Shown here in pieces: positions 13,368-45,265 of a DNA stretch of 45,788 nucleotides (within the stretch, counting starts at the first letter, position 1; each line of letters starts with the position of its first letter). Source of the stretch: Rhodobacterales bacterium RIFCSPHIGHO2_02_FULL_62_130 (lineage in GTDB: Bacteria; Pseudomonadota; Alphaproteobacteria; Rhodobacterales; Rhodobacteraceae); assembly GCA_001828855.1 (NCBI GenBank), contig MHZT01000007.1:1-45788 (forward strand). The letters run 5' to 3'. A program made the translations under genes and the position numbers. The notes beneath the pieces are model-generated. The model ran no database searches. It had not been told where the DNA came from and saw nothing but the letters and a program-made list of their open reading frames with translations.

Positions 13368-13482
13368 GGTTCTATCAGCGGAATGCTCGGGTCAGCCAAG
13401 TGAAGACCGTGCAGCCATGCTCGTTTGTGTCCGTCTCTCTTCAGAAAAAGGATAAAAGAGATACGATCACCGCGAAGCGATG

Positions 13483-13603: not shown

Positions 13604-13639
13604 CCGTCACTGCTCCTCTGTTGTTTTCGTTGCATTCCG

Positions 13640-14632: not shown

Positions 14633-14633
14633 G

Positions 14634-20249: not shown

Positions 20250-20263
20250 CTGAACCTCCCCTT

Positions 20264-23037: not shown

Positions 23038-23759
23038 GGCATTGCACTGACGTCTGCGGCAAGGCTGTAGCCACCACCCCAGACGGTTGCGATCAGCGCA
23101 GGCTTGGCCGGATCGGCCTCGATCTTGCGGCGCAAGCGGCTGATCTGGTTGTCGATGGTGCGATCGAACACCTGTGCGGCGCGACCCGATGTGAGATCGA
23201 GCAGTTGTTCGCGACTGAGCACGAAGCGCGGCCGTTCCAGAAACACCGTCAGCAGACGGAATTCCGCGGTTGTCAGAGAGACCTCGATGCCATTGTCGTC
23301 GGTCAGGGTCCGGCGGTCGGTATCAAGCACCCATCGGTCGAAGGCCAATCTGTGCCCAGCAAGGCTGCCGCCCACCACTTCGCCCCTGTCGGACCGGCGC
23401 AGGATTGCCTTGATCCGGGCCAGCAACTCACGCGGGTTGAAGGGTTTGGGCAGATAGTCATCCGCTCCGACCTCTAGCCCCACGATGCGATCGGTCTCGT
23501 CCCCCAGGGCTGTCAGCATCAAGATCGGGATTGTGCCCTGTGCGCGCAAACGTCGGCAGACCGAAAGGCCGTCTTCGCCTGGCATCATCACGTCTAATAC
23601 GATCAGATCAAATTGACCCACCTGCATCGCCGCATCCATTGCGACGGCATTGGCGGCAGAAGTTGCGCGCATGCCGTTCTTTTCCAGATACTTCACCAGG
23701 GCATCGCGGATTTCGCGGTTGTCATCGACGATCAGAATATGCGGCGGCTGGATCATCAT
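23034..23759 (-). CDS. OmpR-family response regulator (241 aa)
   Basis: The receiver domain (residues 8-120) has the acidic pair D12-D13, phospho-acceptor D56 (VLDVMMPGEDG), the conserved T of LTALGD and the K of LPKPF. The winged-helix DNA-binding domain ends VFDRTIDNQISRLRRKIE and TVWGGGYSL, typical of the OmpR/PhoB group. CAGGAG lies before the tandem ATG start at 23757-23759. It is divergent from the EF-hand gene; the perfect inverted repeat at 23814-23849 is a candidate binding site. By context it is probably a CusR-like copper regulator. Confidence 0.92.
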   Translation of the reverse strand: MMIQPPHILIVDDNREIRDALVKYLEKNGMRATSAANAVAMDAAMQVGQFDLIVLDVMMPGEDGLSVCRRLRAQGTIPILMLTALGDETDRIVGLEVGADDYLPKPFNPRELLARIKAILRRSDRGEVVGGSLAGHRLAFDRWVLDTDRRTLTDDNGIEVSLTTAEFRLLTVFLERPRFVLSREQLLDLTSGRAAQVFDRTIDNQISRLRRKIEADPAKPALIATVWGGGYSLAADVSAMP

Positions 23760-29410: not shown

Positions 29411-29899
29411 TCAATCCACGGGTTGATGTTGGCGCTGGTGTGCAATGACCGGTCTTCCTAAACTGTGCGGACCGGTCTTCTTTGCAGTGCCAATCTTGTT
29501 GACGGGGCTGGGGCCATTCCCGAGGTCGGTTAGAATTGGGCAGTCCGGCCGATGATCCCCGCAGCATGCTTCGGCAAGGTTCTGCAGCGTTTCCATCATA
29601 GCCTGCATCTCGCTGATTTTCCGCTCCAGCCCGCTGATCTGTTCCAGTGCCAGACGTTTCACATCGCTACTCTGGCGGGATCGGTCTCGCCAGAGCGCCA
29701 GCAGTTCCTCGATTTTCTCCACCGGAAAGCCAAGGTCGCGAGAGCGCCGGATGAAGCGCAGCATCTGCACTTCGGTGTCAGAATAGACGCGGTAGCCCGA
29801 ACCAGTGCGCCCGGCCGCAGGGATCAGTCCTGTGGACTCGTAGTAGCGGATCATCTTGGCAGATACGCCCGAGGCTTTTGCGGCTTCACCAATGTTCAT
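29411..29899 (-). CDS. cueR: Copper-responsive MerR regulator CueR
   Basis: This 162-aa MerR-family activator has the N-terminal HTH (MNIGEAAKASGVSAKMIRYYE), a dimerisation helix, and the Cu(I) site C112-x7-C120 (ACCGDHRPDCPIL) with Ser77, the pattern of sensors for +1 metals. It should activate promoters with 19-bp spacers; four such promoters are in this window. It ends about 30 residues beyond most CueRs, with a polar tail after CPILTDL. It lies 12 bp downstream of copA on the same strand, so it is probably copper-induced with copA. Confidence 0.93.
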   Translation of the reverse strand: MNIGEAAKASGVSAKMIRYYESTGLIPAAGRTGSGYRVYSDTEVQMLRFIRRSRDLGFPVEKIEELLALWRDRSRQSSDVKRLALEQISGLERKISEMQAMMETLQNLAEACCGDHRPDCPILTDLGNGPSPVNKIGTAKKTGPHSLGRPVIAHQRQHQPVD

Positions 29900-29911
29900 G
29901 ATCTGGCTCCT

Positions 29912-32386: not shown

Positions 32387-32420
32387 AGCGGAACTCCTTC
32401 GGCATATGTTTCCGCTATTC

Positions 32421-32451
32421 GAGATAGGGCTTCCCATGATGGTAAGGTCAA
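32421..32451 (-). promoter_or_regulatory. CueR-type promoter of copA
   Basis: On the minus strand the -35 TTGACC (32446-32451) and -10 TATCTC (32421-32426) are separated by 19 bp that contain CTTACC and GGGAAG half-sites. It points to copA and cueR, 35 bp from the GTG start. Its operator sequence is nearly the same as that of the copZ promoter 40 bp away. Confidence 0.8.
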
Positions 32452-32489
32452 GGGCTGTTTTTTGTTTTTTCACTCACGGGTTTGTGCTC

Positions 32490-32520
32490 TTGACCTTACA
32501 ACGATGGGAAGCCCCATATG
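32490..32520 (+). promoter_or_regulatory. CueR-type promoter of copZ
   Basis: The -35 TTGACC (32490-32495) and -10 CATATG (32515-32520) are 19 bp apart. The spacer starts TTACAACGATGGGAAGCCC and is a near copy of the copA promoter in the other direction. It should drive copZ and the DUF305 gene. Confidence 0.78.
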
Positions 32521-32799: not shown

Positions 32800-33222
32800 A
32801 TGAAGAAGATTGCAACCGCTGCCGTATTGGCCGCCGTGCTGGCCGCAGGAAGCTATGTCTATGCCCAGACCGACAATATGGCAGGGATGGACCATTCAGG
32901 CATGAACATGGGAACCGATAGCATGACCATGATGAGCCACGCTGCCATGATCCCGCCGGAACTGGCCGACAACGCAGCCGTCAAAGGCTATGCCGCCGCG
33001 ATGGACGCCATGATGACCAACATGGCCCCCTATACCGGCGATGCCGACGTCGATTTCGTCAAAGGCATGATCCCGCACCATCAGGCCGCCATCGACATGG
33101 CGAAAGTGCAGCTTGAATTTGGTACGGATCCCGAGATGCGCAAGCTGGCCGAAGAAGTCATCGCGGCCCAGGAAGCCGAGATTGCCGACATGAACGCCTG
33201 GCTTGCCGCGAAAGGCATGTGA
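32800..33222 (+). CDS. DUF305/CopM-like secreted copper-binding protein (140 aa)
   Basis: A signal peptide ([22 protein letters not shown]) is followed by the Met/His tag [11 protein letters not shown] (residues 27-37) and a DUF305 four-helix domain with the core [18 protein letters not shown]. The family includes the periplasmic copper-binding protein CopM; His and Met residues in the core bind Cu(I). It is probably a periplasmic copper buffer co-expressed with copZ. AGGAAG sits about 8 bp before the ATG. The tag recurs in two cytochromes and in oxidase subunit II. Confidence 0.9.
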
Positions 33223-33282: not shown

Positions 33283-33870
33283 TCACCCCATGCCGTGTAG
33301 TCCATGGAAGCCACCGGTCAGGATGACAGGCACCACGATCAGGCCTGCGGGCGCGAGGATCAGCGCCCGTTGCCATGCCCGCCTGAACTGCCAAAACAAG
33401 AATAGAGCGAGCAGAACAACCAACCCGACCTCGAAGACCGCGAAAACGTCGCCGTAGAAGCGCTGGTCCCAATAGCTGACCGGGCTGCGGAAGACCCAGT
33501 CGGACAGAGGCCAGAACTGGCGGCGGGCATCGTCGTGATGGGTTGCGAAATCCGCTACGGCGTGAAGCAAGCCGGAGCCCGCGAAGGCGCGCAGCAAGAC
33601 TTGGCCGCTCCAAAGGGTAGCGAGGAAAAGCGGGGCCCAGATCAGGAAGCCGTGATCCACCGCGAAAATCGCTTGCCACGAGTCCGAAAAGTATAACCGT
33701 CCAAAGACATCATGCTCCGGCAAACCGAGCACGCGGGTGGACCACAGGACCAGAGCGAACATCGGCAAGTCCGGGACAAAGCCCCCGACCATCGCCGCAA
33801 CAAGTGTTGCCGGTGCCAGAGGCCGCGCAAAAAAAGCCGCTCCGATCAGCATGTGCGACGGCGTGTTCAT
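33283..33870 (-). CDS. YdjM-like/"CobQ-annotated" membrane protein (195 aa)
   Basis: This is an integral membrane protein with about five helices. It begins MNTPSHMLIGAAFFARP and contains GGFVPDLPMF and a late HHDD (ATHHDDARRQFWPLSDW). The pattern is that of the YdjM-type metal-dependent hydrolase-like family; relatives in this bacterial group are often labelled cobalamin biosynthesis protein CobQ, which I think is wrong because CobQ is a soluble amidotransferase. The His/Asp residues could bind metal. It follows the DsbA-like gene by 4 bp as the last gene of the L,D-transpeptidase operon. Confidence 0.7.
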   Translation of the reverse strand: MNTPSHMLIGAAFFARPLAPATLVAAMVGGFVPDLPMFALVLWSTRVLGLPEHDVFGRLYFSDSWQAIFAVDHGFLIWAPLFLATLWSGQVLLRAFAGSGLLHAVADFATHHDDARRQFWPLSDWVFRSPVSYWDQRFYGDVFAVFEVGLVVLLALFLFWQFRRAWQRALILAPAGLIVVPVILTGGFHGLHGMG

Positions 33871-33874
33871 GGCG

Positions 33875-34642
33875 TCAGCATACAGACGTCTGTCTGGATT
33901 TCTCGTCTTCCGCGATGCGACGGAGGAGTGCGTAGGGAATTGCGCCGTTGAGGACGGTTCGCCCGATCACGAGCCCCGGCGTACCGATAAACCCGAAAAT
34001 ATCTGCGAGAGCCCGGGTCCGATCAAGCTCTGCCTGGACTTCCGGCGAGGCCATGTCGCGGGTAAGCTGATCGACGTCGAGTCCGATGTCGGTGGCTACG
34101 CGCAAGACGGATGCCGGTTCTGCAACCAGTGGTGTCCGCATAAAGCGGCGACGAAGCTCCTGCTGCTTGCCTTGCCGTGCGGCCGCAACCGACGCGCGTG
34201 CGGCGAGTTCGGACGCAGGCCCGAAAATCGGAAGTTCGTGCTGGATGAGGCGGAAGGATGCGGGGTCCTCGGCCAAAAGCGTGTCCAGATCCCGCTCAAG
34301 TGCCCGACAGTAAGGGCAGCGGAATTCACTGAAGTATGCGATTGGAACGATTTCCGTCGGCAATGCAGGGCCGAATAGAGCAGGGCAAAGGTCGGCCCGC
34401 AAAGCGTCTGCACGCGCACCTCTCTGATCAGCATCGGCGGGCGGTGCGTCGAGCCCTACGAAAGCGGCCGTTGCTCCAGAAGTCTGACCCTGTTCCTCAA
34501 GTCGGCGAAATGGCGGCAAGTCCGGCAAATCGACGTAACGTGGGCCGCGCCCGGGAAGACGGTCCCACGGCAGCGCACGCAAGCCGTAGATCAGGGCGAC
34601 GGTCCCGCCAAGAACGAGCAGGCCACGGCGTGACCCTGTCAC
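33875..34642 (-). CDS. DsbA-family thiol oxidoreductase (255 aa)
   Basis: This thioredoxin-fold protein has an N-terminal twin-arginine-like anchor (GSRRGLLVLGGTVALIYGL), active site CPYC (FSEFRCPYCRALE) and the cis-proline loop GTPGLVIG. An insert of about 60 residues before the thioredoxin domain is unusual. It overlaps the L,D-transpeptidase gene by 4 bp. Since L,D-transpeptidases depend on a reduced cysteine that copper attacks, a thiol protein expressed with one may protect or repair it; this is inference. The alternative is general disulfide formation. Confidence 0.85.
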   Translation of the reverse strand: MTGSRRGLLVLGGTVALIYGLRALPWDRLPGRGPRYVDLPDLPPFRRLEEQGQTSGATAAFVGLDAPPADADQRGARADALRADLCPALFGPALPTEIVPIAYFSEFRCPYCRALERDLDTLLAEDPASFRLIQHELPIFGPASELAARASVAAARQGKQQELRRRFMRTPLVAEPASVLRVATDIGLDVDQLTRDMASPEVQAELDRTRALADIFGFIGTPGLVIGRTVLNGAIPYALLRRIAEDEKSRQTSVC

Positions 34643-35202
34643 AGCACGGTCACCGGCGTGCCGACGGGCACTTGATCATAGAGCTGCTTCACATGATCGT
34701 TCAGCATTCGGATGCAGCCGTTCGATACGGATTGCCCTATGGAGGCCGGATCTGTCGTGCCGTGGATGCGGAAATAGGTGTCACGGCCGTCTTTGTAGAG
34801 ATAAAGCGCCCTCGCCCCGAGAGGATTGCCGGGCCCGCCCGGCACGCCGTCCGCGAATTGCGCATAGCGGTCGGGGTCACGCCGTATCATGTCATTCGTC
34901 GGCCGCCACGAGGGCCACTCGGCCTTGCGCTCGATGATCGCCGTTCCCTTGAATTCGAGACCAGCCTTGCCAACACCGACGCCGTAGCGAATTGCGCGTT
35001 CGCTGTCGAAGACGTGGTAGAGGTAGTAAAGACGCGGGAATACAAGGATCTGACCCGGAGCGTGCTGCTCGCGGACGCGCACCTCTCGCGGTTGAAATTC
35101 TTCGGCCAGAACGAAAGGTTCTTCGGTGTGGGCTAGCAGGATAGACGGTGTGGCAAAAGCGGCAGCCGCGGCACCGCCTAAAAAGGAACGTCGGGAAATC
35201 AT
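34639..35202 (-). CDS. L,D-transpeptidase (YkuD), Tat-exported, copy 1
   Basis: This 187-aa protein carries a twin-arginine leader (MISRRSFLGGAAAAAFA) and a YkuD domain with the catalytic motif H148-GTTDPASIG...S-N-G-C163-I-R. It would form 3-3 cross-links in peptidoglycan or attach proteins to it. The sequence PGGPGNPLGARALYLY is typical of the ErfK/YbiS/YcfS/YnhG group. The Tat leader is notable, because Sec is usual; Tat export would allow folding in the cytoplasm with the thiol protected. It lies after a small secreted Cys-pair protein and before a DsbA-like gene, all in one operon. Confidence 0.92.
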   Translation of the reverse strand: MISRRSFLGGAAAAAFATPSILLAHTEEPFVLAEEFQPREVRVREQHAPGQILVFPRLYYLYHVFDSERAIRYGVGVGKAGLEFKGTAIIERKAEWPSWRPTNDMIRRDPDRYAQFADGVPGGPGNPLGARALYLYKDGRDTYFRIHGTTDPASIGQSVSNGCIRMLNDHVKQLYDQVPVGTPVTVL

Positions 35203-35240
35203 GATGTCTCCTGGGATGAAGCGATTGGACTTGGGTTCGT

Positions 35241-35543
35241 TCAGGAGACGTATCGCGGAGGCGGCGGTTGTGGAGAAGAGATGCGGCTGCTTGCCCGGAC
35301 TGGCCCGATTTCGAACTGCGATGAGGCAAAAGCGATCTTCAATATCGGAGTCGCGACCTGACTGGCCAATAGGACCTGGCAGGCCACATGACCAGAACCG
35401 CCGCCGCAGTGGGATTCCTGGACCATTGGCATGGCATGCATTTCGAGAAAGGGGCTTTCATGAAGTGCATGATCTGATCGCGCCTCCCCAAAAAGAGACG
35501 CGAGCACAACAGCGCTGCAAAGAATGGCGAGTAACTTTCGCAT
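35241..35543 (-). CDS. Small secreted Cys-pair protein, family copy B (100 aa)
   Basis: A signal peptide (MRKLLAILCSAVVLASLFG) is followed by a His/Met-rich part (DHALHESPFLEMHAMPM), a Cys pair (HCGGGSGHVAC), a hydrophobic strand and the tail SPQPPPPRYVS. The layout matches three other genes in this island. The ATG at 35541-35543 gives the best signal peptide; an ATG six codons upstream (35561) has no ribosome site. It is the first gene of the minus-strand L,D-transpeptidase operon. Metal binding is likely; DUF2946 is the nearest family I know by layout. Confidence 0.62.
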   Translation of the reverse strand: MRKLLAILCSAVVLASLFGEARSDHALHESPFLEMHAMPMVQESHCGGGSGHVACQVLLASQVATPILKIAFASSQFEIGPVRASSRISSPQPPPPRYVS

Positions 35544-35670
35544 CACCATACATAGAGTCACATGTGCTCTGAAGTGATGTTCACATCGCAGTGACCTCTG
35601 CTATTTTCGCGCGGCGCGGCGAAATCGCCACGTCATCACCAGTTTGTGACCATTTGATCTGACAACCGGT

Positions 35671-35701
35671 TTGACCTTCCCACGTTGGAAGGCTGCATCA
35701 C
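35671..35701 (+). promoter_or_regulatory. CueR-type promoter of the L,D-transpeptidase operon
   Basis: The -35 TTGACC (35671-35676) and -10 CATCAC (35696-35701) are 19 bp apart, with the dyad ACCTTCC-CACGTT-GGAAGGC within. The arrangement matches the other three CueR-type promoters here. It would place the second L,D-transpeptidase and the cytochrome/PBP2 operon under copper control. Confidence 0.72.
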
Positions 35702-35725
35702 GATAAAAAAACCGAGGTGCAGCCC

Positions 35726-36286
35726 ATGCGATTCAATCGACGTTACTTCGCTGTCGGAGCACTGGCCGCGCCCTTTTTGGTGGGCCGGGCCGCCTTTGCC
35801 TCCGAAGACACCGAAGGCCCGGTTCGCAATAACATTTCCGCGTTTCGGGTTCACGAGTGGCAAGACCATTTTGATGCGTTGGGTCTTGGGATCATCATAT
35901 CTGACACGACCGCGAAGGTTCTCCAGCACTGGACCGGTGACGGTCAGATGTTCCTGTATCCGAGTTCTGTCCCGCTATCCGAGGATCTGACTCGCAGGGG
36001 CTATACCGAAGTCGTCGAAAAGCGCGTCAACCCAAGCTGGACACCGACGCCATCGATGCGGGAGCGCAATCCCGAGTGGCCAGCATTTGTGCCGGGCGGC
36101 GACCCCAGCAACCCGCTTGGAACGCGTGCCCTCTATTTGTCCTGGCAATATTACCGCATCCACGGCACCCACGATACGCGGAAAATCGGGCGCCGATCCT
36201 CGAACGGTTGCATCGGCCTCTACAACGAGCATATTGAAGAAGTCTTCGACCGAGTTCCGGTCGGGACGCAAGTCAAGTTGATCTAA
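35726..36286 (+). CDS. L,D-transpeptidase (YkuD), Tat-exported, copy 2
   Basis: This 186-aa protein has a twin-arginine leader (NRRYFAVGALAAP) and a YkuD domain with H146-GTHD and S-S-N-G-C162-I-G. It is only distantly like copy 1, so it is not a recent duplicate. GAGG lies 8 bp before the ATG at 35726, which I prefer to the GTG at 35717. A CueR-type promoter ends 25 bp upstream, so this enzyme should be induced by copper. Copper is known to inhibit L,D-transpeptidases by binding the catalytic cysteine, so extra synthesis under copper stress makes sense. It heads the long plus-strand operon. Confidence 0.92.
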   Translation: MRFNRRYFAVGALAAPFLVGRAAFASEDTEGPVRNNISAFRVHEWQDHFDALGLGIIISDTTAKVLQHWTGDGQMFLYPSSVPLSEDLTRRGYTEVVEKRVNPSWTPTPSMRERNPEWPAFVPGGDPSNPLGTRALYLSWQYYRIHGTHDTRKIGRRSSNGCIGLYNEHIEEVFDRVPVGTQVKLI

Positions 36287-36290
36287 CCCT

Positions 36291-36665
36291 ATGTTGAAGA
36301 CGCCCACCAAACGGACCGCATTGAACTTCCTGCTTCCGGGCGGGATGGTGCGACTTCTATGGGCATGGTCTTTCATGATCGTGCTGCTCTGCGGTTTGAC
36401 TATTGGCCAATCTGCATCGGCGTTCGCCCCGGTTGATCATCACTCCCCGACCTCGGTAGAGATGTCAGACGGCAGTGCCGGATCGACGAACATATCGCTG
36501 TCTTGCCATCCGGCGCTGGCATGTACTGCATTCGTGTTGCCAATCGGCGCAGTGACTGCGTTCATCCCCAGCCATGCAGTGATGTCGCGACCGCGTTTGG
36601 CCCAGACCCAGCTTCGCTTCGGGGGCCCCTCTGTCAGTCTGCCCCCTCCACGCCTGCTGATCTGA
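36291..36665 (+). CDS. Small secreted Cys-pair protein, family copy C (124 aa)
   Basis: A long N-terminus contains a signal or anchor helix (LLWAWSFMIVLLCGLTIG). It is followed by DHH and Met residues, a Cys pair CHPALAC, a hydrophobic strand TAFVLPIGAVTAF and the tail SLPPPRLLI. It starts 4 bp after the L,D-transpeptidase stop. It has the same layout as copies A, B and D. No ribosome site is seen, so coupled translation is likely. Function is unknown; metal or thiol chemistry in the periplasm is the best guess. Confidence 0.6.
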   Translation: MLKTPTKRTALNFLLPGGMVRLLWAWSFMIVLLCGLTIGQSASAFAPVDHHSPTSVEMSDGSAGSTNISLSCHPALACTAFVLPIGAVTAFIPSHAVMSRPRLAQTQLRFGGPSVSLPPPRLLI

Positions 36666-36829
36666 AGGTCAGCCTGGGCGAGAGCCATGGTTCGATGGTG
36701 CCGTTTCAGGCCTAGTCGAGTGCTCTGTCGTTTTAATCCTGACCCAAAACATGTGCGCAGTTCGCGAACCGCCTGAAGTGCGGTGCGCGGTGGTCAATCA
36801 AAAACAACAAACCGAGAGCAGTCAGGCAG

Positions 36830-37474
36830 ATGGCAAAACAATGGACAGGCGCTATGGCGCTTGCCGCTTCCGCAGTCGCGGCAGTGGCGATGGCACACAA
36901 CGGGGCGACCGGCGTCGTCCTTGAGAGGATGAACGGCATGACGGCGATGCGGGATACCGTGGCGGAACTGGCGCCAATGATGCAGGGCGCTGTACCCTAC
37001 GATGCCTTCATTGTCTCGGAAGGCGCCGCCGTGATCGCGGGCCACGCCGGCGAAACCATGCTGTCGCTCTTCCCCGAAGGCAGCCTTGAAGGCGTAACCT
37101 ATGCCAAGCCGGAGATCTGGTCCAACTGGCAGGATTTTGCAGCTCTGGCAGAAGAGATGAGGGTTTACGCAGATGCCCTGTCCGAGGCTGCGCCGAACGG
37201 GCTTGAACCGGCTTCCGCACTGCCGGCAGACATGGCGGGGATGGATCATACCGGAATGGCCATGCCTCCTGCCGAAGAGACCAATCTCGGTTTTTCGGTG
37301 GCAGAACTGATGGGCTATGGCGAAAAGACCGCAGACAGCCCGGTTTCGCCAGGACTGGCAGACCCGGCCTCCCTTGCGCTGACCCTGTCTAGCCTTGCAG
37401 CCGATGATTTGTTCAATCGGATTAGCGGAACCTGTTCCTCGTGCCATTCGCAGTTCCGCGCAGGAAAGAACTGA
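36830..37474 (+). CDS. Class II (c'-like) cytochrome c with Met/His tag (214 aa)
   Basis: A signal peptide (MAKQWTGAMALAASAVAAVAMA) is followed by a four-helix cytochrome c'/c-556 domain with the heme site CSSCH near the C-terminus (about residues 204-208). A Met/His insert MAGMDHTGMAMPP (about residues 135-147) interrupts the domain between helices, where relatives have a short loop. The first part has RMNGM, possibly the sixth ligand. It is a soluble periplasmic electron carrier; the insert probably binds copper. It starts 164 bp after copy C, so a separate promoter is possible. The diheme cytochrome gene follows after 2 bp. Confidence 0.85.
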   Translation: MAKQWTGAMALAASAVAAVAMAHNGATGVVLERMNGMTAMRDTVAELAPMMQGAVPYDAFIVSEGAAVIAGHAGETMLSLFPEGSLEGVTYAKPEIWSNWQDFAALAEEMRVYADALSEAAPNGLEPASALPADMAGMDHTGMAMPPAEETNLGFSVAELMGYGEKTADSPVSPGLADPASLALTLSSLAADDLFNRISGTCSSCHSQFRAGKN

Positions 37475-37476
37475 CC

Positions 37477-38460
37477 ATGCGGGGCCTGATCCGGCTTTTT
37501 GCCATTTTGCCGACCGTGGTGGGTAGCCTTGGTGCCGGGGTGCTGGCGCTCTGGCCCATCGGAGATGCGGAGCCCGCCGCATTTCCGATCGGCGACCCTG
37601 AACGTGGGGCGTATCTGGCCCGTTCAGGCGGTTGCGTGTCGTGCCACACTAACGCGGCGGCGAAGGGCCCCGCACTTGCAGGCGGTGCACCGCTCGATAC
37701 GCCGTTCGGAACTTTCGTGCCGCCGAACATCACGCCGCATCCTGTGGCGGGAATCGGGCGGTGGACCATTCAGGATTTCGCGCGTGCCGTGCGTCAGGGC
37801 GTTTCCCCAGAAGGGGACCCCTATTATCCGGTCTTCACTTATTCCTTCTACGCCGGGTTTACAGACCAGGACATCGCCGACTTGTGGGAGGCTTTTCGGA
37901 CTGTCCCACCCGTCGCCGAAGCAGCTCCTGTCCATGATGTGGGCTTCCCCTTCAGTTTCCGGTCCGGGCTGAAGCTGTGGCGGGCCAACTATCTTGATGC
38001 GCCGGTGACGGACGCGCTGATGGGCACATCGTCGCCGTGGAACCGCGGACGTGTTCTGGTTGAAGGGGCGGCGCATTGCGCGGCCTGTCACACGGGACGA
38101 AACCTTGCCGGTGGCCTGAAAGACAGCGCGCGTTTTGCGGGAAACGACGATCTGCCTGGCGGCAGCAAGGCGCCGTCGATCCTCGTGGCCGACCTCCTAG
38201 GGCGGGGCTTTACGGTGGGCAACCTCAGCTATGCCCTCAAATCCGGGCTCCTTCCGAACGGAGATGCCTTTGGCGGCAGCATGGCTGAGGTCGTAGCGCA
38301 GGGCACTTCTTATTTTACGGACGCCGACCGCGAAGCGATTGCAACCTACCTTCTTGATCCCGATGGCACTGGATTAGTGCCCGCGCCCGGACCGCTGCCC
38401 ACAGACACACCCATGGCGGGGATGGATCATTCAAACATGGACATGAGCAATGAAAACTAG
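37477..38460 (+). CDS. Membrane-anchored diheme cytochrome c (327 aa)
   Basis: The N-terminal helix (LIRLFAILPTVVGSLGAGVLAL) is a signal anchor. There are two heme-binding sites, C53VSC56H57 and C201AAC204H205, in a layout like the cytochrome subunits of periplasmic dehydrogenases. The C-terminus adds the tag MAGMDHSNMDM, which shares an 18-nt stretch with the tag of the preceding gene. The ATG at 37477 follows the previous stop by 2 bp. It may carry electrons between the c' cytochrome and a terminal acceptor. Copper binding by the tail is inference. Confidence 0.88.
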   Translation: MRGLIRLFAILPTVVGSLGAGVLALWPIGDAEPAAFPIGDPERGAYLARSGGCVSCHTNAAAKGPALAGGAPLDTPFGTFVPPNITPHPVAGIGRWTIQDFARAVRQGVSPEGDPYYPVFTYSFYAGFTDQDIADLWEAFRTVPPVAEAAPVHDVGFPFSFRSGLKLWRANYLDAPVTDALMGTSSPWNRGRVLVEGAAHCAACHTGRNLAGGLKDSARFAGNDDLPGGSKAPSILVADLLGRGFTVGNLSYALKSGLLPNGDAFGGSMAEVVAQGTSYFTDADREAIATYLLDPDGTGLVPAPGPLPTDTPMAGMDHSNMDMSNEN

Positions 38461-38878
38461 AGTTCTGGCCATCCTCGTTGCTCTCGGCGTCCTCGGATTT
38501 GTGGGTGCATTCGTCTGGGCAGCGATGCGGCCCCCGGCGTCAGTGCCGATATCATCCGGCGGAGTCGCACCGACTGCGTCGGTTTCTGAAATGCTGTCGG
38601 ACGGACGAATCGACGTGCAAGTCTACGCCACGGGGAACCGAGATGTTCGTATGGACATCCAGTTCATGCCCGACGCTGATGCAATAGAGTCGGTCGACAT
38701 GCGACCGGACGTCAACTTTGCCATGGTCGAGATGCACATGGACGGTCTCACACCGCCCCTTGAATTGGTCGAGGCAGGCGTGTGGCGGGTCAACCTCAAG
38801 CTGCCAATGGCTGGTCTATGGATCGTCAATGTCGGTTTCGGTGAGGAATTTGCGGAGGTTCAGTTCGATGCTCCCTGA
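38450..38878 (+). CDS. FixH-like membrane-anchored protein (142 aa)
   Basis: This has an N-terminal transmembrane helix (VLAILVALGVLGFVGAFVWAA) and a beta-rich periplasmic domain ending LPMAGLWIVNVGFG. The pattern resembles FixH/YtkA-type proteins, which help assemble oxidases or carry copper. Met residues (VDMRPDVNFAMVEMHMDGL) may bind Cu(I). It overlaps the cytochrome gene by 11 bp and the next membrane gene by 11 bp, so the set is tightly coupled. The family call is only moderately sure. Confidence 0.6.
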   Translation: MKTRVLAILVALGVLGFVGAFVWAAMRPPASVPISSGGVAPTASVSEMLSDGRIDVQVYATGNRDVRMDIQFMPDADAIESVDMRPDVNFAMVEMHMDGLTPPLELVEAGVWRVNLKLPMAGLWIVNVGFGEEFAEVQFDAP

Positions 38879-39359
38879 AATTCTCGCGCCTGAGAAATTG
38901 CGCGCAGATGCCCTGCGCAGGCTCCTTCGCGGAACCCTTGTCGGGCTCGCCTTGTTCATCGCCCTGGGCACCGTTACCGCCGTCTGGATCAATCCCTTCT
39001 TTGTGCGCATGACCCCGGTTGGGCCCTGGGAGCTTGGAGCGACGACCTTGACGGCTATGCTGGCTGGCGTGACCGTCGGCCTCTGGGTCCCTCAGTGCCG
39101 TTTGCGAACGTCTGGGGCGGGCGGAGTTGCAAGCTTTCTCGGCATCGCCTGCCCGACCTGCAACAAGGTCCTGATGCTGATCTTCGGTGGCCCAGCCCTG
39201 TTGGCCTGGTTCGACCCGGTTCGGCCCTATTTGGCGGTGGCAGGCGTGATCATCATGTCATTCGCCGCGATGCGGGCGTTGCGAGCATACCGTGATTTCA
39301 GAATGTCGGCGGGCGGAACAGTAAACGCCAGTTCAACGTCGTTTGGGAGCAACAAATGA
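38868..39359 (+). CDS. Membrane protein with CPTCNK motif, unknown family (163 aa)
   Basis: I do not recognise a named family. There are about four hydrophobic helices: about residues 20-42, 55-73, 85-107 and 115-132. The cysteines of GIACPTCNKVLMLIFGG lie at a helix start, so the C-x2-C could bind metal, heme or thiols near the membrane surface. The ATG overlaps the end of the FixH-like gene, and the stop overlaps the ferric-reductase-like gene by 4 bp, so it belongs to the same complex or pathway. A role in electron transfer to the ferric-reductase-like protein is possible. Confidence 0.65.
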   Translation: MLPEILAPEKLRADALRRLLRGTLVGLALFIALGTVTAVWINPFFVRMTPVGPWELGATTLTAMLAGVTVGLWVPQCRLRTSGAGGVASFLGIACPTCNKVLMLIFGGPALLAWFDPVRPYLAVAGVIIMSFAAMRALRAYRDFRMSAGGTVNASSTSFGSNK

Positions 39360-40111
39360 GGGTCGCCGAAATATCAGGCCACGCTGCAAGGCCGCGTCGT
39401 CTGGCACAACGGACGCTGGTTCGCCATGCGGCTGTGGCATTTTTGGCCACCGGACTGGTTCTTGGCTTTGCCGCCGTACACTTCGATTTCAGCCCGATGC
39501 ACCGCTGGAACCGAGCATTCGGGGATGCCTCCATGGTACTTGTCGCTCTGTCCGTCGGGTTAGGGCCATTGGCTCGGTTCCTCCGGAGTATCGTGCGTGT
39601 TCTTCCTTTCCGGCGTGAGCTTGGCATCTACGCATGCCTTCTTGCGATCGTTCATGCAGCTGTGATCTTGATTGGTTGGGTCCAATGGGACCTGATGCGG
39701 CTTTTTGGCTTCGAATGGCATCCTGAACTTCTGACCTATGTGATGCTTCAGCATGGCTTCGGACTTGCCAATGCCATTGGGGTTGCCGCCCTTCTGCTTG
39801 CGATCCTGTTGGGTGTGACTTCGAGCGACTTCGCCATGCGTCGCCTTGGTGTTTCGGGCTGGAAATTTCTTCAAATGGGCGTCCTGCCGCTCTGGTGGCT
39901 GACCGTCGCGCATGTAGCCTACTTTCTGTTCATGCATTTCCTCAGTTTTCACCGCGCGACCCCGCCGCCGAATACGCTCCAGCCTTGGTTCCTGGGGCTG
40001 GTCGCCGCAGTTTTTGCTCTGAGAGGGGCCGCTTATGTGCTGACCGTTCGCGCGAAGGGGAAATCTCGGCCGGAAGAAATGGGAGGAGACCGTGCGACGA
40101 TCTCAACGTGA
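39356..40111 (+). CDS. Ferric-reductase-like transmembrane protein (251 aa)
   Basis: The protein has six to seven helices and the ferric-reductase-like heme membrane domain pattern: RRELGIYACLLAIVHA (His candidate heme ligand), LQHGFGLANAIG and LTVAHVAYFLFMHFLSFHR with further paired histidines. It lacks flavin and NAD domains, so electrons must come from or go to another protein, perhaps the cytochromes of this operon. MsrQ is a related type that supplies periplasmic methionine sulfoxide reductase, but no MsrP is seen here. Gene overlaps on both sides show tight coupling. Confidence 0.82.
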   Translation: MRVAEISGHAARPRRLAQRTLVRHAAVAFLATGLVLGFAAVHFDFSPMHRWNRAFGDASMVLVALSVGLGPLARFLRSIVRVLPFRRELGIYACLLAIVHAAVILIGWVQWDLMRLFGFEWHPELLTYVMLQHGFGLANAIGVAALLLAILLGVTSSDFAMRRLGVSGWKFLQMGVLPLWWLTVAHVAYFLFMHFLSFHRATPPPNTLQPWFLGLVAAVFALRGAAYVLTVRAKGKSRPEEMGGDRATIST

Positions 40112-42044
40112 CCTTGCCCAGATATCCCAGAAGACCACACGAAGGGCGCTTCTGATGGGGGGCGTCATGACAACGTTTGTCGGCGTGCTGGGCCTGCGGA
40201 TGTGGCAACTGGGTGTACGTGACGCAGATCAATATTATCTGTTGGCTGAAGAAAACCGTATCAGCTTGCGGCTTGTGCCGCCCAACCGAGGTCGCATCTA
40301 TGACCGCGCAGGAAAGATAGTGGCCGACAACGAGCAGGCTTTTCGTATCACGCTGGTGCGCGAGGAGGTCAAAGATCTTGAAGACGTGCTTGCGAAACTG
40401 CGACGTCTTCTGGGTCTTGATGACGAAGCCATCGTTAAGATCAAAGGCCAGATCGAGCGGACAAGCGGCTTTGCTCCAATCACCGTGAAAGACCGGGTCA
40501 CGTGGGAAGAACTGTCAATCGTGGCTGTGAACGCGCCAGCACTTCCGGGGATCCATCCGGAAATGGTTTTGTCGCGCGTCTATCCGTTTGGTCCCGATTT
40601 TGCTCACCAGGTTGGCTATGTAGGCCCAGTGAGCGAGAACGATCTGAAGGAAGAAGAGGTCGCGGCTGAACCCTTACTCCGTCTGCCAGACTTTGAGGTC
40701 GGCAAGATCGGGATTGAGCGCAGACATGAACGAGCGCTGCGCGGCTTGCCGGGGACGCAGCGTGTCGAGGTCAATGTGTCTGGGCGCACCATGCGGGAAC
40801 TGGCGCTTGATCCGCCGACAGCCGGGCCGGACATACAAATCACGCTCGACCATCATCTGCAGAATTTTATGCGCGTGCGTCTCGAAGGTCAGAGCGCGGC
40901 GGCCATCGTCATGGACGTGACGAATGGCGATGTGCTTGGTTGCACATCAGCACCGTCGTTTGATCCGAACCTGTTCGTGCGTGGCATCTCGAACCTGGAC
41001 TATGGCGCGCTGCGCGACAACGAGTTTCGCCCGCTGTCCGACAAGACAGTGCAGGGGGCCTATCCACCGGGATCAACGGTCAAGATGTCGAATGCGTTGG
41101 CCGCACTTGAGAGCGGTGTCATGGACCCTGCAGAAACGGTCGCCTGCAATGGCTATGTCGAGATTTCAGGCCGCCGGTTCCATTGCTGGAAACGTGGCGG
41201 GCATGGGCGGGTGGATATGGTCGGCGCTTTGCGTGAGTCCTGCGATGTCTACTTCTATGAGGTTGCGCAACGCATCGGGATTGACGGCATTTTTGCCATG
41301 AACGATCGGCTCGGGCTTGGCCAGAAGTATGATCTGCCGCTGTCCGGCATGGCGCGCGGCAACAACCCCTCGCGCGATTGGAAGCAGAAGAAGTACGGCC
41401 AAGACTGGCTGATTGGCGACACGATCAACGCCTCAATCGGGCAGGGCTTTACTCTGGCCTCGCCGATTCAGCTCGCAACCATGGTGGCGCGGCTTGCTTC
41501 CGGCACGGCCGTGCTGCCTCGGATGGTGCGGCCGATCAGCGGGACGTCGACGGAAAACTCTGCTCCAGCGTCTCTTGGACTTTCAGCTGAGGCGCTGTCC
41601 ATCGTTCGGCAGGGTATGTTCGAGGTGTCTAACCACGAACGTGGCACTGCCTACGCGTCAAGAATTGCCGACCCGACAAAAGTGATGGCAGGAAAGACCG
41701 GCTCAAGCCAGGTTTTCTCGATCTCGGCGGCGGAACGCGCGGCGGGTGTCCGATCACAGGATGAACTGCCGTGGAACCGTCGTGACCACGCGCTGTTTGT
41801 CGCCTTTGCCCCGTTCGACGCACCCCGCTTTGCAGTCACAGTGGTAGTCGAGCATGGTGGCGGAGGTTCCACGGCTGCCGCGCCGATAGCACGCGATATC
41901 ATGCTGTTTGCGCAACACGGCGGATTGCCACCGACGGACGCTTATCCCGCGTCGCAAAGGACCCGCGTCAGCGATCAGCTGGCACTCTTGTCCGATCGCA
42001 TCCTTCCGCCCGATGGTGCGACATCAATTGTGAGCCGGACATGA
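40092..42044 (+). CDS. mrdA: Penicillin-binding protein 2 (MrdA-type transpeptidase)
   Basis: This 650-aa class B PBP has an N-terminal membrane helix (about residues 18-40), a dimerisation domain (PNRGRIYDRAG) and a transpeptidase domain with S328-T-V-K331, S383-C-D and K535-T-G. This matches PBP2 of the elongasome (E. coli Ser330). It makes 4-3 cross-links. The start is GTG 40092 with GGGAGGAG 4 bp upstream, overlapping the previous gene by 20 bp. The SxN motif reads SCD, as in E. coli PBP2. A plasmid-borne PBP2 outside any rod-shape operon is unusual and suggests a spare enzyme used in copper stress; altered beta-lactam response is possible. Confidence 0.93.
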   Translation: MRRSQRDLAQISQKTTRRALLMGGVMTTFVGVLGLRMWQLGVRDADQYYLLAEENRISLRLVPPNRGRIYDRAGKIVADNEQAFRITLVREEVKDLEDVLAKLRRLLGLDDEAIVKIKGQIERTSGFAPITVKDRVTWEELSIVAVNAPALPGIHPEMVLSRVYPFGPDFAHQVGYVGPVSENDLKEEEVAAEPLLRLPDFEVGKIGIERRHERALRGLPGTQRVEVNVSGRTMRELALDPPTAGPDIQITLDHHLQNFMRVRLEGQSAAAIVMDVTNGDVLGCTSAPSFDPNLFVRGISNLDYGALRDNEFRPLSDKTVQGAYPPGSTVKMSNALAALESGVMDPAETVACNGYVEISGRRFHCWKRGGHGRVDMVGALRESCDVYFYEVAQRIGIDGIFAMNDRLGLGQKYDLPLSGMARGNNPSRDWKQKKYGQDWLIGDTINASIGQGFTLASPIQLATMVARLASGTAVLPRMVRPISGTSTENSAPASLGLSAEALSIVRQGMFEVSNHERGTAYASRIADPTKVMAGKTGSSQVFSISAAERAAGVRSQDELPWNRRDHALFVAFAPFDAPRFAVTVVVEHGGGGSTAAAPIARDIMLFAQHGGLPPTDAYPASQRTRVSDQLALLSDRILPPDGATSIVSRT

Positions 42045-42517
42045 CCTTGCGGGAGAAGAACAGATGGGCGTTCCGCCTTCAAAGGTCGTTGCTCATCGGC
42101 GGCCTCTTGGCGACCGTGGCCACTCCATCCTTCGCCTTCTTTCACAGTGAGCCGGATATCGAGTTGGGCCGGAAGACGTATCAGGAAACCTGTGCATCCT
42201 GCCACGGCGCAAATCTGGAAGGGCAGCCGAACTGGCAATCAGCAAACTCGAACGGGACTTATCCTGCACCTCCCCACGATGAGACAGGTCATACGTGGCA
42301 TCACGGGGATGAAATGTTGCTCAACTACATCCGCAAAGGTGGGCAAGTTGTGCTGGACGAGATGGGTGTCGATTTCATGTCAGGCATGCCCGCGTTCGGT
42401 GAGCAACTTTCGGATGCCGAGATCGAAGCGATCCTCGCCTATATCAAATCGACTTGGCCAGCGCGGGTCCGCGCCACGCAGGAAGACCGCACCCGCATGG
42501 AGGCGGCGAGCGAATGA
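42041..42517 (+). CDS. Monoheme cytochrome c (158 aa)
   Basis: A signal peptide (FRLQRSLLIGGLLATVATPSFA) is followed by a class I cytochrome c domain with C51-ASC54-H55 and a Met ligand in DFMSGMPAFGEQLSD. A His-rich part (HDETGHTWHHGDEM) between them may bind metal. It overlaps the PBP2 stop by 4 bp. The third cytochrome of the operon, it is likely a soluble periplasmic carrier. Confidence 0.9.
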   Translation: MTLREKNRWAFRLQRSLLIGGLLATVATPSFAFFHSEPDIELGRKTYQETCASCHGANLEGQPNWQSANSNGTYPAPPHDETGHTWHHGDEMLLNYIRKGGQVVLDEMGVDFMSGMPAFGEQLSDAEIEAILAYIKSTWPARVRATQEDRTRMEAASE

Positions 42518-42621
42518 ACCAGCACCTTAGTCTCTCCCCAGGAAGAAACCTGCTTGCCTATCAAGTGGCTAGAGGGTTCACACACGACAAAATCAGCCCT
42601 ATTTCCCAGAAGGTCTCACCT

Positions 42622-43350
42622 ATGCGCGTTACCCAAATGATACTTGCCGCCACGTTTGCACTAGCGTTGCCAGAACAATCCCTGTCGCAAGAGATCTCCG
42701 ATGATCGGATCAAGGCGCTCGTGGCCGAAACACTTCGGGAAAATCCCGAACTGGTGCTGGAAGCCTTGCAGGCCCTGGAAGCGCGCCAAGCCGAAGCTCA
42801 GGCCGCCACAGCCGCGTCTGTCCTCACCAAAGAACGCACCACTTTGGAACGCGACCCCAATGCGCCAATCCTCGGCAATCCGGACGGCGACGTCACGATT
42901 GTGGAATTCTTTGACTATAATTGCCCCTACTGCAAACGGGCCATGCCCGAAGTCAATGCCTTGATGGCCGAGGACACCAACGTGCGCCTTGTTTTGCGTG
43001 AGTGGCCGATCCTGAGCGAGGGGTCTGCTTTTGCCGCCCGCGCCGCCCTGGCGTCGCGGCAGCAGGGCAAATACGCCGAAATGCACGACGCCCTGATGAC
43101 GATGCGCGGCAAGGTTGAAGCAGAGGCCGTGCTGCGCATAGCAGGTGAGGTCGGACTCGACGTTGAGAAGCTGAAGATCGACATGCAGTCGCCCGAAGTT
43201 GAGGAGCATATTGCCACCTCAATGCGACTGGCCGAGGCGCTTGGTTTCAATGGCACACCGTCGTTCGTGGTCGGCGATCAGCTGATCCCCGGTTTTGTGG
43301 AAAAGCCGCAGTTGGTCGAAGCCGTGACAGCAGCACGGGCGGTAGAATGA
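42622..43350 (+). CDS. ScsC/Com1-like DsbA-family protein (242 aa)
   Basis: A signal peptide (MRVTQMILAATFALALPEQSLSQ) is followed by an N-terminal helix (DRIKALVAETLRENPELVLEAL) like the oligomerisation domain of ScsC/Com1 proteins. The thioredoxin fold has the CPYC active site (FFDYNCPYCKRAM) and cis-Pro GTPSFV. ScsC proteins are disulfide isomerases linked to copper tolerance, which suits the context. AGAAGG lies 8 bp before the ATG at 42622. An ATG at 42514 overlaps the previous stop and is in frame, but it would add 36 residues with no signal. Confidence 0.88.
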   Translation: MRVTQMILAATFALALPEQSLSQEISDDRIKALVAETLRENPELVLEALQALEARQAEAQAATAASVLTKERTTLERDPNAPILGNPDGDVTIVEFFDYNCPYCKRAMPEVNALMAEDTNVRLVLREWPILSEGSAFAARAALASRQQGKYAEMHDALMTMRGKVEAEAVLRIAGEVGLDVEKLKIDMQSPEVEEHIATSMRLAEALGFNGTPSFVVGDQLIPGFVEKPQLVEAVTAARAVE

Positions 43351-44003
43351 GTGTCCCATTGCCGCGCTTTCTTGCTGCCGGTCTTCCATTCCCATTTTCG
43401 GAAGTGGAAAGGGTCCAGACCGCGGTCAAGAGGTCTTTCTTGGTGGTTTCAGTGTGGATGGCCCTGTCAGGGAATGCCTTGGCGCATTCGCTCACTGCAG
43501 CTCTTATAGTCGCCGACGATAACCGTGAAGCAAGCCTCGCAGAAGTCGTCCGCGGCTTCCTGCTGGCGGCAGACGAGCGGGATGGGCACGCAAACGAAAC
43601 GTCTGACGGGCATCTGGGTGGGGTCGATGTGCATGTGCTTCCGCTTCCGCGCGATGCAGCCGGGTCGGTCGAAGGCCTGATCGGTAAACCTACCGAGCCC
43701 GGCGATGTCGTGGTCGTCCTTGGCACTGAACCTGCAGCAAGCGAAGCCGCGCGAAAGTATCAGTCCAACAGCACCGTCTTGCTGCAAGTGGTGCTACCGG
43801 TGGGATGGGACAGCGACGTAGGGACTGACAGTTTTGTGGCGCGCTACCGTCTCGCCTATGGCACAGCGCCCGGTTTGATGGCGGCAACAGGCTATCACGC
43901 AGCGCGTCGTCTGGATGTAGCCATCAGACCGCTGGACGGTGTGATCCCGCGGGCGGCACTGGAAGACGCTTGGCGGTCAACCTCGTCCGGGCTGCCTTGG
44001 TAA
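43347..44003 (+). CDS. Short periplasmic-binding-protein-like protein (218 aa)
   Basis: After a signal-like segment (VKRSFLVVSVWMALSGNALA, about residues 27-46) the protein has short strands and ends in RYRLAYGTAPGLMAATGYHAARRLDVAI. This strongly resembles the end of branched-chain amino-acid type binding proteins (Peripl_BP_6). At 218 aa it is about half the usual length, so the first lobe is missing or reduced. It overlaps the ScsC-like gene by 4 bp and ends the operon. Ligand is unknown; an accessory to a quinoprotein or cytochrome system is one possibility. Confidence 0.6.
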   Translation: MSVPLPRFLAAGLPFPFSEVERVQTAVKRSFLVVSVWMALSGNALAHSLTAALIVADDNREASLAEVVRGFLLAADERDGHANETSDGHLGGVDVHVLPLPRDAAGSVEGLIGKPTEPGDVVVVLGTEPAASEAARKYQSNSTVLLQVVLPVGWDSDVGTDSFVARYRLAYGTAPGLMAATGYHAARRLDVAIRPLDGVIPRAALEDAWRSTSSGLPW

Positions 44004-44085: not shown

Positions 44086-44553
44086 TCAGGCTGCCGGATA
44101 GCTGGTGAACATGCTGCTGCTGCCGTCAAGTCCGACGAGAAGAACGTCATAAGCTTCGCGCTCGGCCTCTGGCCCCATGCCGGGAGAGCCGAAAGGCATG
44201 CCTGGAACGGTGAGCCCGGTAGCAGCAGGACGTTCGGCCACCAAGCGACGGATATCGGCAGCTGGGACGTGGCCTTCGATGGTGTAGTCGCCGATCGTCG
44301 CCGTGTGGCACGAGACAAGATCATCGGGGATGCCACGTTCGCGCTTGAATGCGGCCAGTTCTTCAACGCTGCGCTCTTCGAAGCTGACAGCAAAGCCGCT
44401 CTCGCGAAGGTGGCCGATCCAGGCATTGCAGCAGGGGCAGCCCGGATCTTTGACCACGTGGATGCTCGCGTCTGTTTTGGCCCAAACGGGCGTTGTGGCG
44501 AGGCTGATGGCCCAACTCATCGCTCCGATCATGGTGCGTCGAGATATCTGCAT
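44086..44553 (-). CDS. DUF411 metal-binding protein, Tat-exported (155 aa)
   Basis: A twin-arginine leader (SRRTMIGAMSWAISLATTPVWA) is followed by a DUF411 domain with the CPCC motif (KDPGCPCCNAWIGHL), EERSVEELAAFKRERGIP, SCHTATIGDYTIEGHVP and GMPFGSPGM. The family is found in copper and other metal resistance loci and is thought to bind copper in the periplasm. AGGGACAAAAAC lies before the ATG at 44551-44553. It converges with the plus-strand operon and stands alone on its strand. Confidence 0.9.
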   Translation of the reverse strand: MQISRRTMIGAMSWAISLATTPVWAKTDASIHVVKDPGCPCCNAWIGHLRESGFAVSFEERSVEELAAFKRERGIPDDLVSCHTATIGDYTIEGHVPAADIRRLVAERPAATGLTVPGMPFGSPGMGPEAEREAYDVLLVGLDGSSSMFTSYPAA

Positions 44554-44653: not shown

Positions 44654-45265
44654 TTACTCCAATCGCGGATCATCAGCTTGCACCAGAAGAACACCATGAT
44701 TGTTGTCTGCGTCGTCATCCGTAATCTTGCGGGTTTCGACCCCGGGCAAATCAGCAAAAGCTTCCATCATGCGCTTGGGAAACCACGTCATCGGCAAGCC
44801 TTCAAAGCCGGGGACACCTTCAAGGACCCGAGAGAGCGCAATGGTGCAGTTCGCTTTTGGAACGGCACCATAGGCCATTGCCCGCTGCATGATCAGTGCG
44901 GCCACTTCGGGCGAAACTTCGACCGTCTGCTCCACCACGTCGAAAGTCTCGCGCGCATGGTAGTCGATATAGAAATCAACCATTTTTGGCGTAACACCGA
45001 AATGCACATCGTTGCGCTCGGGAAGCTGCGGGTGGCGCCATGTTCCGGCGGGATCAAACATGACCCTCTGAGCGCCGTTGATCAGAAGCCCGGCATGCGC
45101 ACCAGAGCCGTTGCGTGTCGAAAGCACGGTGTAGAGTGTTACCGACGTCGGGCCGGGATGCGTGTAGCGTGATGCGACAACGGCCGCCTCCGGTGCCCAG
45201 ATCGGTTCCGCCCCGCAGGCCGCCAAACTCAGGGTTGTCGCTATGGCTAGAAAAATCTTCATCAT
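44654..45265 (-). CDS. Lipoprotein, possible permuted NlpC/P60-like fold (203 aa)
   Basis: A lipoprotein signal (MMKIFLAIATTLSLAAC) puts the lipid-modified Cys at about residue 18. The mature part contains HAGLLINGAQRVMFDPAG and KANCTIALSRVLEGVPG. A His before a Cys in such settings is the order of circularly permuted papain-like (LRAT/NlpC-P60) enzymes, so a thiol hydrolase or amidase role is possible. I do not recognise a named family. The tandem ATG at 45260-45265 has GGTG about 6 bp upstream. If it is a cell-wall hydrolase it would fit the wall theme of the adjacent operon. Confidence 0.6.
   Translation of the reverse strand: MMKIFLAIATTLSLAACGAEPIWAPEAAVVASRYTHPGPTSVTLYTVLSTRNGSGAHAGLLINGAQRVMFDPAGTWRHPQLPERNDVHFGVTPKMVDFYIDYHARETFDVVEQTVEVSPEVAALIMQRAMAYGAVPKANCTIALSRVLEGVPGFEGLPMTWFPKRMMEAFADLPGVETRKITDDDADNNHGVLLVQADDPRLE

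Follow-up and report, generated by a model that had tools for sequence, protein, structure and literature searches.

The contig analysed here (contig C7 of the 4.97-Mb genome of a Gemmobacter-like bacterium; its full 45,788 nucleotides are referred to as the window) carries, beside genes for CueR and CopA (29411-32473), a block encoding two L,D-transpeptidases (LDTs), a second penicillin-binding protein 2 (PBP2), thiol proteins and cytochromes c. We consider the chances about even that this block provides wall cross-linking within a copper-survival island that Rhodobacterales carry on plasmids, serving as a backup set for thiol-dependent enzymes of the cell envelope. Such an island would export and oxidise copper, and would also supply second copies of extracytoplasmic enzymes whose thiols are attacked by the metal: in the window the LDTs (catalytic Cys), PBP2 (a Cys3His site next to the catalytic Ser, which probably binds zinc) and DsbA/ScsC proteins, and in sister islands Lnt (catalytic Cys), LspA, CcmFGHI and DsbB. 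Fresh LDTs exported by the twin-arginine translocation (Tat) system and the extra PBP2 would replace copper-blocked copies, allowing 3-3 and 4-3 cross-linking to continue, and DsbA/ScsC would hold Cys sites in the correct redox and metal state. The presence of repABC genes (12207-15923) indicates that the contig is a repABC plasmid, and its LDT/PBP2 region shares 97.7% identity with plasmid p5 of Gemmobacter fulvus.

In order to evaluate whether the block recurs, the genomes of 84,980 species were scanned for its PBP2, and 41 further full-length relatives were found on 39 contigs, plus one fragment. The neighbouring genes were searched in these 41 loci, several of which end at contig ends, and the number of loci that kept each gene is given in brackets below. 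In the window, the genes form two strings running in opposite directions from about 35.6 kb. The minus-strand string (33283-35561) encodes a small secreted His/Met/Cys protein with a Cys pair (35241-35561; 33/41), LDT1 (34639-35202; 30/41), a DsbA-like thiol protein with a CPYC motif (33875-34642, PF01323; 29/41) and a membrane protein without Pfam match, labelled CobQ on G. fulvus p5 (33283-33870; 30/41). The plus-strand string (35726-44003) starts with LDT2 (35726-36286; 35/41), a small secreted Cys-pair protein (36291-36665; 37/41), a cytochrome c' with one CXXCH (36830-37474, PF01322; 37/41) and a diheme cytochrome c with two CXXCH (37477-38460; 39/41), followed by a YtkA-like secreted protein (38450-38878, match under the Pfam cut-off), a membrane protein whose sequence contains CPTC (38868-39359) and a ferric-reductase-like membrane heme protein (39356-40111, PF01794 with 36.7 bits against a cut-off of 28; 40/41). 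PBP2 itself (MrdA, 40092-42044) precedes a monoheme cytochrome c with one CXXCH, detected by domain search (42041-42517), a DsbA/ScsC-like thiol protein with CPYC and the ScsC N-terminal domain (42622-43350, found in a domain search from 42514; 36/41) and a conserved secreted protein without family or Pfam match (43347-44003; 34/41). An earlier note on this DNA had listed two YkuD LDTs, a full PBP2, DsbA/ScsC-like proteins, three cytochromes c, a ferric-reductase-like protein and small Cys-pair proteins, and all of these frames are open where it had placed them.

The recurrence of the gene order in the 41 further loci argues that the set goes beyond chance; the earlier note had made its interpretation depend on such a recurrence, which was found in dozens of genomes, and copper genes usually lie next to the set. 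Carriers include Rhodobacter capsulatus SP108, several Gemmobacter, Defluviimonas, Frigidibacter oleivorans, a Paracoccus and Roseovarius azorensis, and in Pseudogemmobacter bohemicus Cd-10 the whole block is present three times on one 321-kb scaffold (L158, L173, L176). A second type of copper ATPase was a neighbour in 21 of the 41 loci, and a CopA match of any score in 25; CopA above 300 bits (3/41) and CueR (2/41) were few because the 10-kb flank stops inside or before copA. Three loci from bins assigned to Verrucomicrobiaceae, Porticoccus and Cyclobacteriaceae (L162, L165, L168) are counted among the 41; their PBP2 is 70-83% identical to that of Rhodobacterales, and a spread to other phyla was rejected in favour of likely stray contigs. 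Copies in other plasmid records were less than 55% identical, many of them in very large replicons, and were left uncounted. In a survey of 198 genomes, the ferric-reductase/PBP2 pair stood beside LDT2 in the genome under study and in three others. Separately, the ferric-reductase-like protein was seen near a copper-type ATPase and/or a 218-amino-acid protein in five loci without PBP2 (L044, L046, L047, L049, L050), as if these genes were a module of their own, and a fragment with the C-terminal 49 residues of PBP2 (L177:10001-10147) precedes a DUF411-M23-SCO-Lnt string, the complete gene being on the same contig.

PBP2, LDT1 and LDT2 are under purifying selection. In comparisons with the window, in which synonymous divergence (dS) was near saturation (1.6-2.3), the ratio of nonsynonymous to synonymous substitution rates (dN/dS) was 0.051-0.053 for PBP2, 0.033-0.038 for LDT2 and 0.054-0.062 for LDT1, and among close relatives it was 0.03-0.21. 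These values bear on the explanation that the envelope genes were merely trapped in a successful mobile island and kept without a role against copper. The islands are indeed mosaics, as in the hybrid loci L157 and L165, and are found on transferable plasmids: out of 72,556 plasmid records 133 had an LDT2 match, and 59 of the 133 were typed as conjugative. Nevertheless, we regard hitch-hiking as very unlikely in view of the purifying selection, the fixed order with overlapping genes, the conserved promoter-like box described below and the similar functional mix found in a Rhizobium plasmid.

The plasmid PBP2 scored 684 bits with TIGR03423 (cut-off 455) and contains the dimerisation and transpeptidase domains (PF03717 and PF00905), with the catalytic motifs S328TVK (SxxK, 328-331), S383CD (383-385) and K535TG (535-537). 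Two PBP2 genes of the genome score above the family cut-off; the copy on contig C51 is 54% identical to that of the plasmid. In the phylogenetic tree, island PBP2 (47 rows, in which some loci appear twice) and chromosomal PBP2 (20 rows) were separated with a support of 100/100. In PBP2 of A. baumannii, a zinc ion bound by Asp350, Asp365, His371 and Cys384, at about 10 Angstrom from the catalytic Ser, is required for function (PMC9974482). When aligned to 7zg8 and 8zpc, the plasmid PBP2 has Cys352, Cys365, His371 and Cys384 at the zinc-ligand positions, and the four candidate ligands are kept in all 47 island and all 20 chromosomal rows of rhodobacteral PBP2. The best sequence match for the ligand stretch, PBP2 of Campylobacter jejuni, likewise has C, C, H and C. 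In a structure model (mean predicted local distance difference test score, pLDDT, 82.3; 86-96 in blocks from 351 to 390), the ligand residues lie on matching elements, namely a strand end, a loop joining two strands and a short one joining two helices, a placement judged from secondary structure rather than geometry. Together, alignment and model make a Cys3His zinc site next to the catalytic Ser probable. As such a site would adjoin the active site, PBP2 is also a plausible copper target, and we infer that copper could displace its zinc. The site also offers a reason for the presence of PBP2 in the block, for which the earlier note gave none.

Both LDTs match YkuD (LDT1, 71.0 bits; LDT2, 79.9 bits; cut-off 23.4) and have a complete catalytic motif HG...SxGC, with IHGT and SNGC aligned to those of solved LDTs and a single catalytic Cys (Cys163 in LDT1, Cys162 in LDT2). 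The proposal that both are exported by Tat was borne out for LDT1 (TIGR01409, 17.3 against a cut-off of 16.7), while in LDT2 the twin Arg was recognised by eye, without a model match. Assignment to LdtE or another named LDT of E. coli was rejected, since the best NCBIfam equivalog scored 85.3 bits against a cut-off of 480; the proteins are members of the family, not LdtE. A copper-proof active site was also considered and rejected: the SxGC[IVY]G motif is identical in island and non-island copies of LDT2, and the residue at Cys+2 is Gly in LDT2 and in the 54 other aligned rows, island or not. The genome has 13 YkuD loci, six of which lie in metal islands by position (two in the window, three on C38 and one on C24). 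Relatives of LDT2 at an E value of 1e-40 were found in 183 of the 198 genomes of the family; the neighbourhoods of the top-ranked ones were fetched first, then those of the 20 next in rank. Around the closest relatives the island order was LDT2, cytochrome c', diheme cytochrome, multicopper oxidase, cytochrome c, ScsC-like protein, HMA protein, CopA and CueR, often joined by a response regulator and a histidine kinase, and among the surroundings read, such copper-island neighbours were absent around most lower-ranked relatives.

The same grouping was observed in the LDT2 tree, where 24 rows from 22 genomes, all copper-labelled and including LDT2 of the window, formed a single set (support 97/99). 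The copper label required 4 changes on the tree against a mean of 17.8 after shuffling, none of 500 shuffles being as low; labels were assigned by us from neighbour matches, 3 of the 31 labelled rows on weak evidence (L021, L035, L038), and L072, with a ScsC match only, was left unlabelled. Identical LDT2 sequences in three genera point to recent transfer. Metal-resistance genes surrounded LDT2 in 9 of 10 plasmid records read, which were part of 12 taken at even steps from the LDT2-matching records, the exception being plasmid 1 of Paracoccus denitrificans PD1222. The number of LDTs per island varied, with two in the window, three in Paracoccus sp. AK26 and four in S. pontiacus. Such numbers, and the M23 peptidases found in LDT-carrying islands, would fit an envelope remodelling in which extra LDTs and PBP2 tighten the wall or tether outer membrane proteins, lowering copper entry or repairing lysis-prone walls, with no replacement of blocked enzymes. 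We consider this unlikely: copper blocks LDTs, so that more LDT alone would be a poor tool under copper, and DsbA/ScsC and Lnt/LspA would be left unexplained.

Related islands carry further envelope enzymes. Beside LDT2 in D. shibae pDSHI01, Phaeobacter inhibens pP66_b and Martelella mediterranea pMM259, genes for CcmF, DsbE/CcmG, CcmH, CcmI and a DsbD/ScsB-like protein were found, and the island of Tabrizicola piscis with LDT1, LDT2 and PBP2 adds Lnt, LspA, DsbB, a DsbA-like protein, SCO, PCuAC, an M23 peptidase and a third LDT. A plasmid of Rhizobium sp. Khangiran2, from a drilling mud pit, combines a PenA/FtsI-like class B PBP, two LDTs, LspA, Lnt, DsbA, DsbB, SCO and PCuAC. In order to evaluate such extra copies, 25 island genomes (those with copper-labelled LDT2 rows) and 25 controls (low handle numbers with an LDT2 match) were picked by us; G021, with 9.8 kb free of copper genes, was put in neither group, and G013, which holds a copper island with island-type CcmF and no LDT2, was kept as a control. 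An extra Lnt was found in 9 of the 25 island genomes, two of which (G160 and G156) had no Lnt match at all, and in none of the 25 controls (Fisher p 0.0016). The surroundings of 10 of the 11 extra Lnt copies were read, and all 10 lay in a SCO-PCuAC-M23-DUF411 module; island Lnt formed one clade (11 rows, 100/100), and the ICYE cysteine is kept in island and chromosomal rows alike. The genome under study has three Lnt genes, two of them within metal islands. Among the extra CcmF copies of island genomes, 11 of 12 lie within 12 kb of an island LDT2, and island-type rows cluster (84/88) with two further copies whose surroundings also hold copper-island genes. A second copy beside copper genes, with the first elsewhere in the genome, was observed for PBP2, Lnt and CcmF, except for CcmF of D. 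shibae (G035), all of whose copies are of the island type.

Several observations on these modules were made in passing. In D. shibae the three CcmF copies found, the chromosomal one included, group with the island type, which may have replaced the usual CcmF; the set CcmF/CcmG/CcmH/CcmI is present in the copper islands L077 (pDSHI01), L079, L080 and L130. A conserved plasmid string of SCO, DsbB, DsbA-like protein, PCuAC, SCO, M23, DUF411, LspA and Lnt (L081-L088, L008, L012, L129, L131) resembles a module for lipoprotein maturation and disulfide formation, and in many of these loci a MerR-type regulator is divergent to the string. The Rhizobium stretch (L200:524-14007) also contains a gene labelled RcsF. 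LspA and a methyltransferase beside a P-type ATPase (L078:38426-40001, L135:14847-18215) resemble operons for lead resistance and possibly represent a metal module of their own.

The earlier note had limited its interpretation to wall cross-linking and thiol state, which proved too narrow given the second Lnt, LspA, CcmFGHI and DsbA/DsbB of islands elsewhere. A broader reading, which we put somewhat below an even chance, is that a modular and transferable target-replacement system against copper exists in Rhodobacterales and at least one Rhizobium plasmid, assembled from LDT/PBP2, LspA/Lnt, CcmFGHI, and DsbA/B with ScsB/C, so that an island would amount to a list of copper's envelope targets and would predict a new target, the Cys3His zinc site of PBP2. 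Published targets fall in the same categories. Purified LdtA of V. cholerae is inhibited by copper, which lowers LD cross-links in several species (PMC11390936), in agreement with the copper inactivation of LDTs assumed in the earlier note; lipoprotein acylation is impaired by copper, cutE being lnt (PMC6538781); Durand 2015 (listed among the references of PMC8456105) names cytochrome c assembly as a copper target in its title; and copper acts on disulfides (PMC9302775). This agreement weighs against the explanation that the extra genes are cargo helpers and no host replacements, with Ccm, Dsb, Lnt and LspA maturing the island's own cytochromes, oxidases and lipoproteins, and LDTs and PBP2 inserting or tethering them in the wall. 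Such self-sufficiency is suggested by at least three cytochromes c, SCO, PCuAC and oxidases beside Ccm and Dsb genes in islands, and by the heme lyase of the D. shibae island, which may be specialised (661 bits on the NrfE model, under the cut-off of 927). It seems doubtful to us, since the LDT/PBP2 stretch of the window has three cytochromes c and no ccm genes, and Ccm is therefore not needed locally, and since no client is apparent for the LDT and PBP2 copies.

Expression of the plus-strand operon would be switched on by copper, through a CueR-type box in the window and a two-component system beside other islands. The earlier note had placed a CueR-type promoter at the head of this operon. 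A promoter-like box is present there, upstream of LDT2 (TTGACCTTCC-CACGTT-GGAAGG, 35671-35692, plus strand), yet its centre has 6 bases and a clear -10 was not seen ahead of LDT2, so that an ordinary CueR dyad (7 central bases within a spacer of 19-20 bp, plus a -10) was rejected for this position. The three other boxes of the window (at 25066, 32429 and 32494) have a 7-base centre, and include two divergent CueR-type boxes of the type TTGACCTTAC-N7-GGGAAGC (32429-32516) between copA and an HMA gene. The full two-arm box, with 6 or 7 bases between the arms, occurs twice in the window and in none of 200 windows resampled under a first-order Markov model. Out of 44 loci scanned, 39 had an LDT2 match, one of which was partial and skipped; in 36 of the remaining 38, TTGACCTTCC-N6-GGAA lies 51-58 bases upstream of the matched LDT2 start, with the GGAAGG arm complete in 22 of the 36 and ending as GGAAGC or GGAACC in the rest. 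The two loci without box are the hybrid islands L157 and L165. Judged by its sequence, the element ahead of LDT2 is real and conserved, yet it is no textbook CueR box. A box shared by LDT2 operons for a two-component system was also sought and rejected, TCAGG-N3-CCTGA being confined to near-identical islands of the D. shibae/Phaeobacter type; this inverted repeat (L077:12754-12766 and relatives) is a candidate site for the adjoining response regulator.

A number of results weigh against a replacement role under copper. Many LDT2 islands are devoid of PBP2, LDT homologues of this size are common and, among the surroundings read, mostly lie outside copper islands, and the identity of the LDT2 motif inside and outside islands gives no sign of a copper-proof enzyme. 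LspA is no Cys enzyme, the excess of extra CcmF (9/25 island genomes against 4/25 controls, p 0.20) was not significant, and the box ahead of LDT2 has the deviating centre and no clear -10. Moreover, R. litoralis with pRLO149_83 was no more copper tolerant than R. denitrificans (PMC3141670), a comparison between two different species; the 83-kb plasmid of R. litoralis holds an LDT2 relative. In D. shibae, a 102-kb plasmid carrying numerous copper genes left resistance to copper, cobalt and zinc unchanged and raised that to silver slightly (PMC9426580). Plasmids of this size in D. shibae hold an LDT2 relative, and the presence of two further near-identical islands in strain DFL 12 makes this copper test a weak one; their redundancy might account for its negative outcome. 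For pDSHI03 of D. shibae, a transposon insertion in a gene of cytochrome c biogenesis has been published (PMC4886583), and pDSHI01 holds a near-identical island.

That silver phenotype, the only one published for a related plasmid (PMC9426580), would also suit protection chiefly against silver or another thiol-binding metal instead of copper, as would the Nramp, MntR, ZIP, CDF or ArsR genes present in some islands. We hold this to be quite unlikely, because the genes for CopA, CueR, multicopper oxidase, PCuAC and SCO indicate copper. CueR-type regulators respond to silver as well, which was counted in favour of silver.

In target-replacement resistance of the kind known from mecA, the acquired PBP2a does the job of the poisoned enzyme. 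Here the poison would be a metal, several pathways are duplicated together, and insensitivity of the second copy is only putative. The scs system (suppressor of copper sensitivity) is known for thiol proteins only; the window has a ScsC-like protein with the ScsC N-terminal domain and sister islands have ScsB/DsbD-like proteins, but these are joined to wall, lipoprotein and heme enzymes. PbrC is a signal peptidase II of lead-resistance operons, and in T. piscis and P. marcusii LspA is likewise the neighbour of a metal P-type ATPase, whereas PbrC concerns lead and a single enzyme. The nearest precedent is lgt2/lit2, a pair of second lipoprotein enzymes induced by copper and co-transcribed with copper-resistance genes on a mobile element of Gram-positive Listeria and Enterococcus (PMC8275575). 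The likeness lies in second copies of envelope enzymes beside copper genes; copper induction is a feature of lgt2/lit2, which belongs to Gram-positive bacteria, comprises the lipoprotein pathway alone, without LDT, PBP2, Ccm or Dsb, and is treated mainly for immune attenuation (PMC8275575). Plasmid islands of Roseobacter with CueR, CopA and multicopper oxidase are located on the same carrier plasmids and were published as heavy-metal resistance, with only transporters and oxidases discussed in the text available, and the word transpeptidase is absent from the main text of the three papers (PMC3141670, PMC5613091, PMC9426580). Literature searches, judged largely from sources short of full text, turned up no account in which copper islands include copies of LDT, PBP2, Lnt or Ccm, in keeping with the opinion of the earlier note that the combination was not known to be described. 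Copper resistance is usually framed as pumping, oxidising and binding, and mobile islands seem to add a second line made of spare envelope enzymes. If this is true, the gene content of the islands would serve as a genetic read-out of the damage done by copper, which has long been an open question, and PBP2 would be predicted to be hit by copper at a zinc site formed by three cysteines and one histidine.

The block is flanked by further genes. On its left are a CueR-like MerR regulator (29411-29899, minus strand; MerR domains, 86% identity to a protein annotated as CueR on G. fulvus p5), a CopA-type copper P-type ATPase with two HMA domains (29912-32473, minus strand) and a DUF305 protein (32800-33222, plus strand), the latter two assigned by domain search. 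On its right, a DUF411 protein (44086-44553, minus strand; PF04214) is followed by a conserved lipoprotein-like protein without family (44654-45265, minus strand), present in 32 of the 41 related PBP2 loci. Elsewhere on the plasmid, a gene for subunit I of a cytochrome/quinol oxidase (18582-20267) lies near a histidine kinase/response regulator pair (21634-23759).

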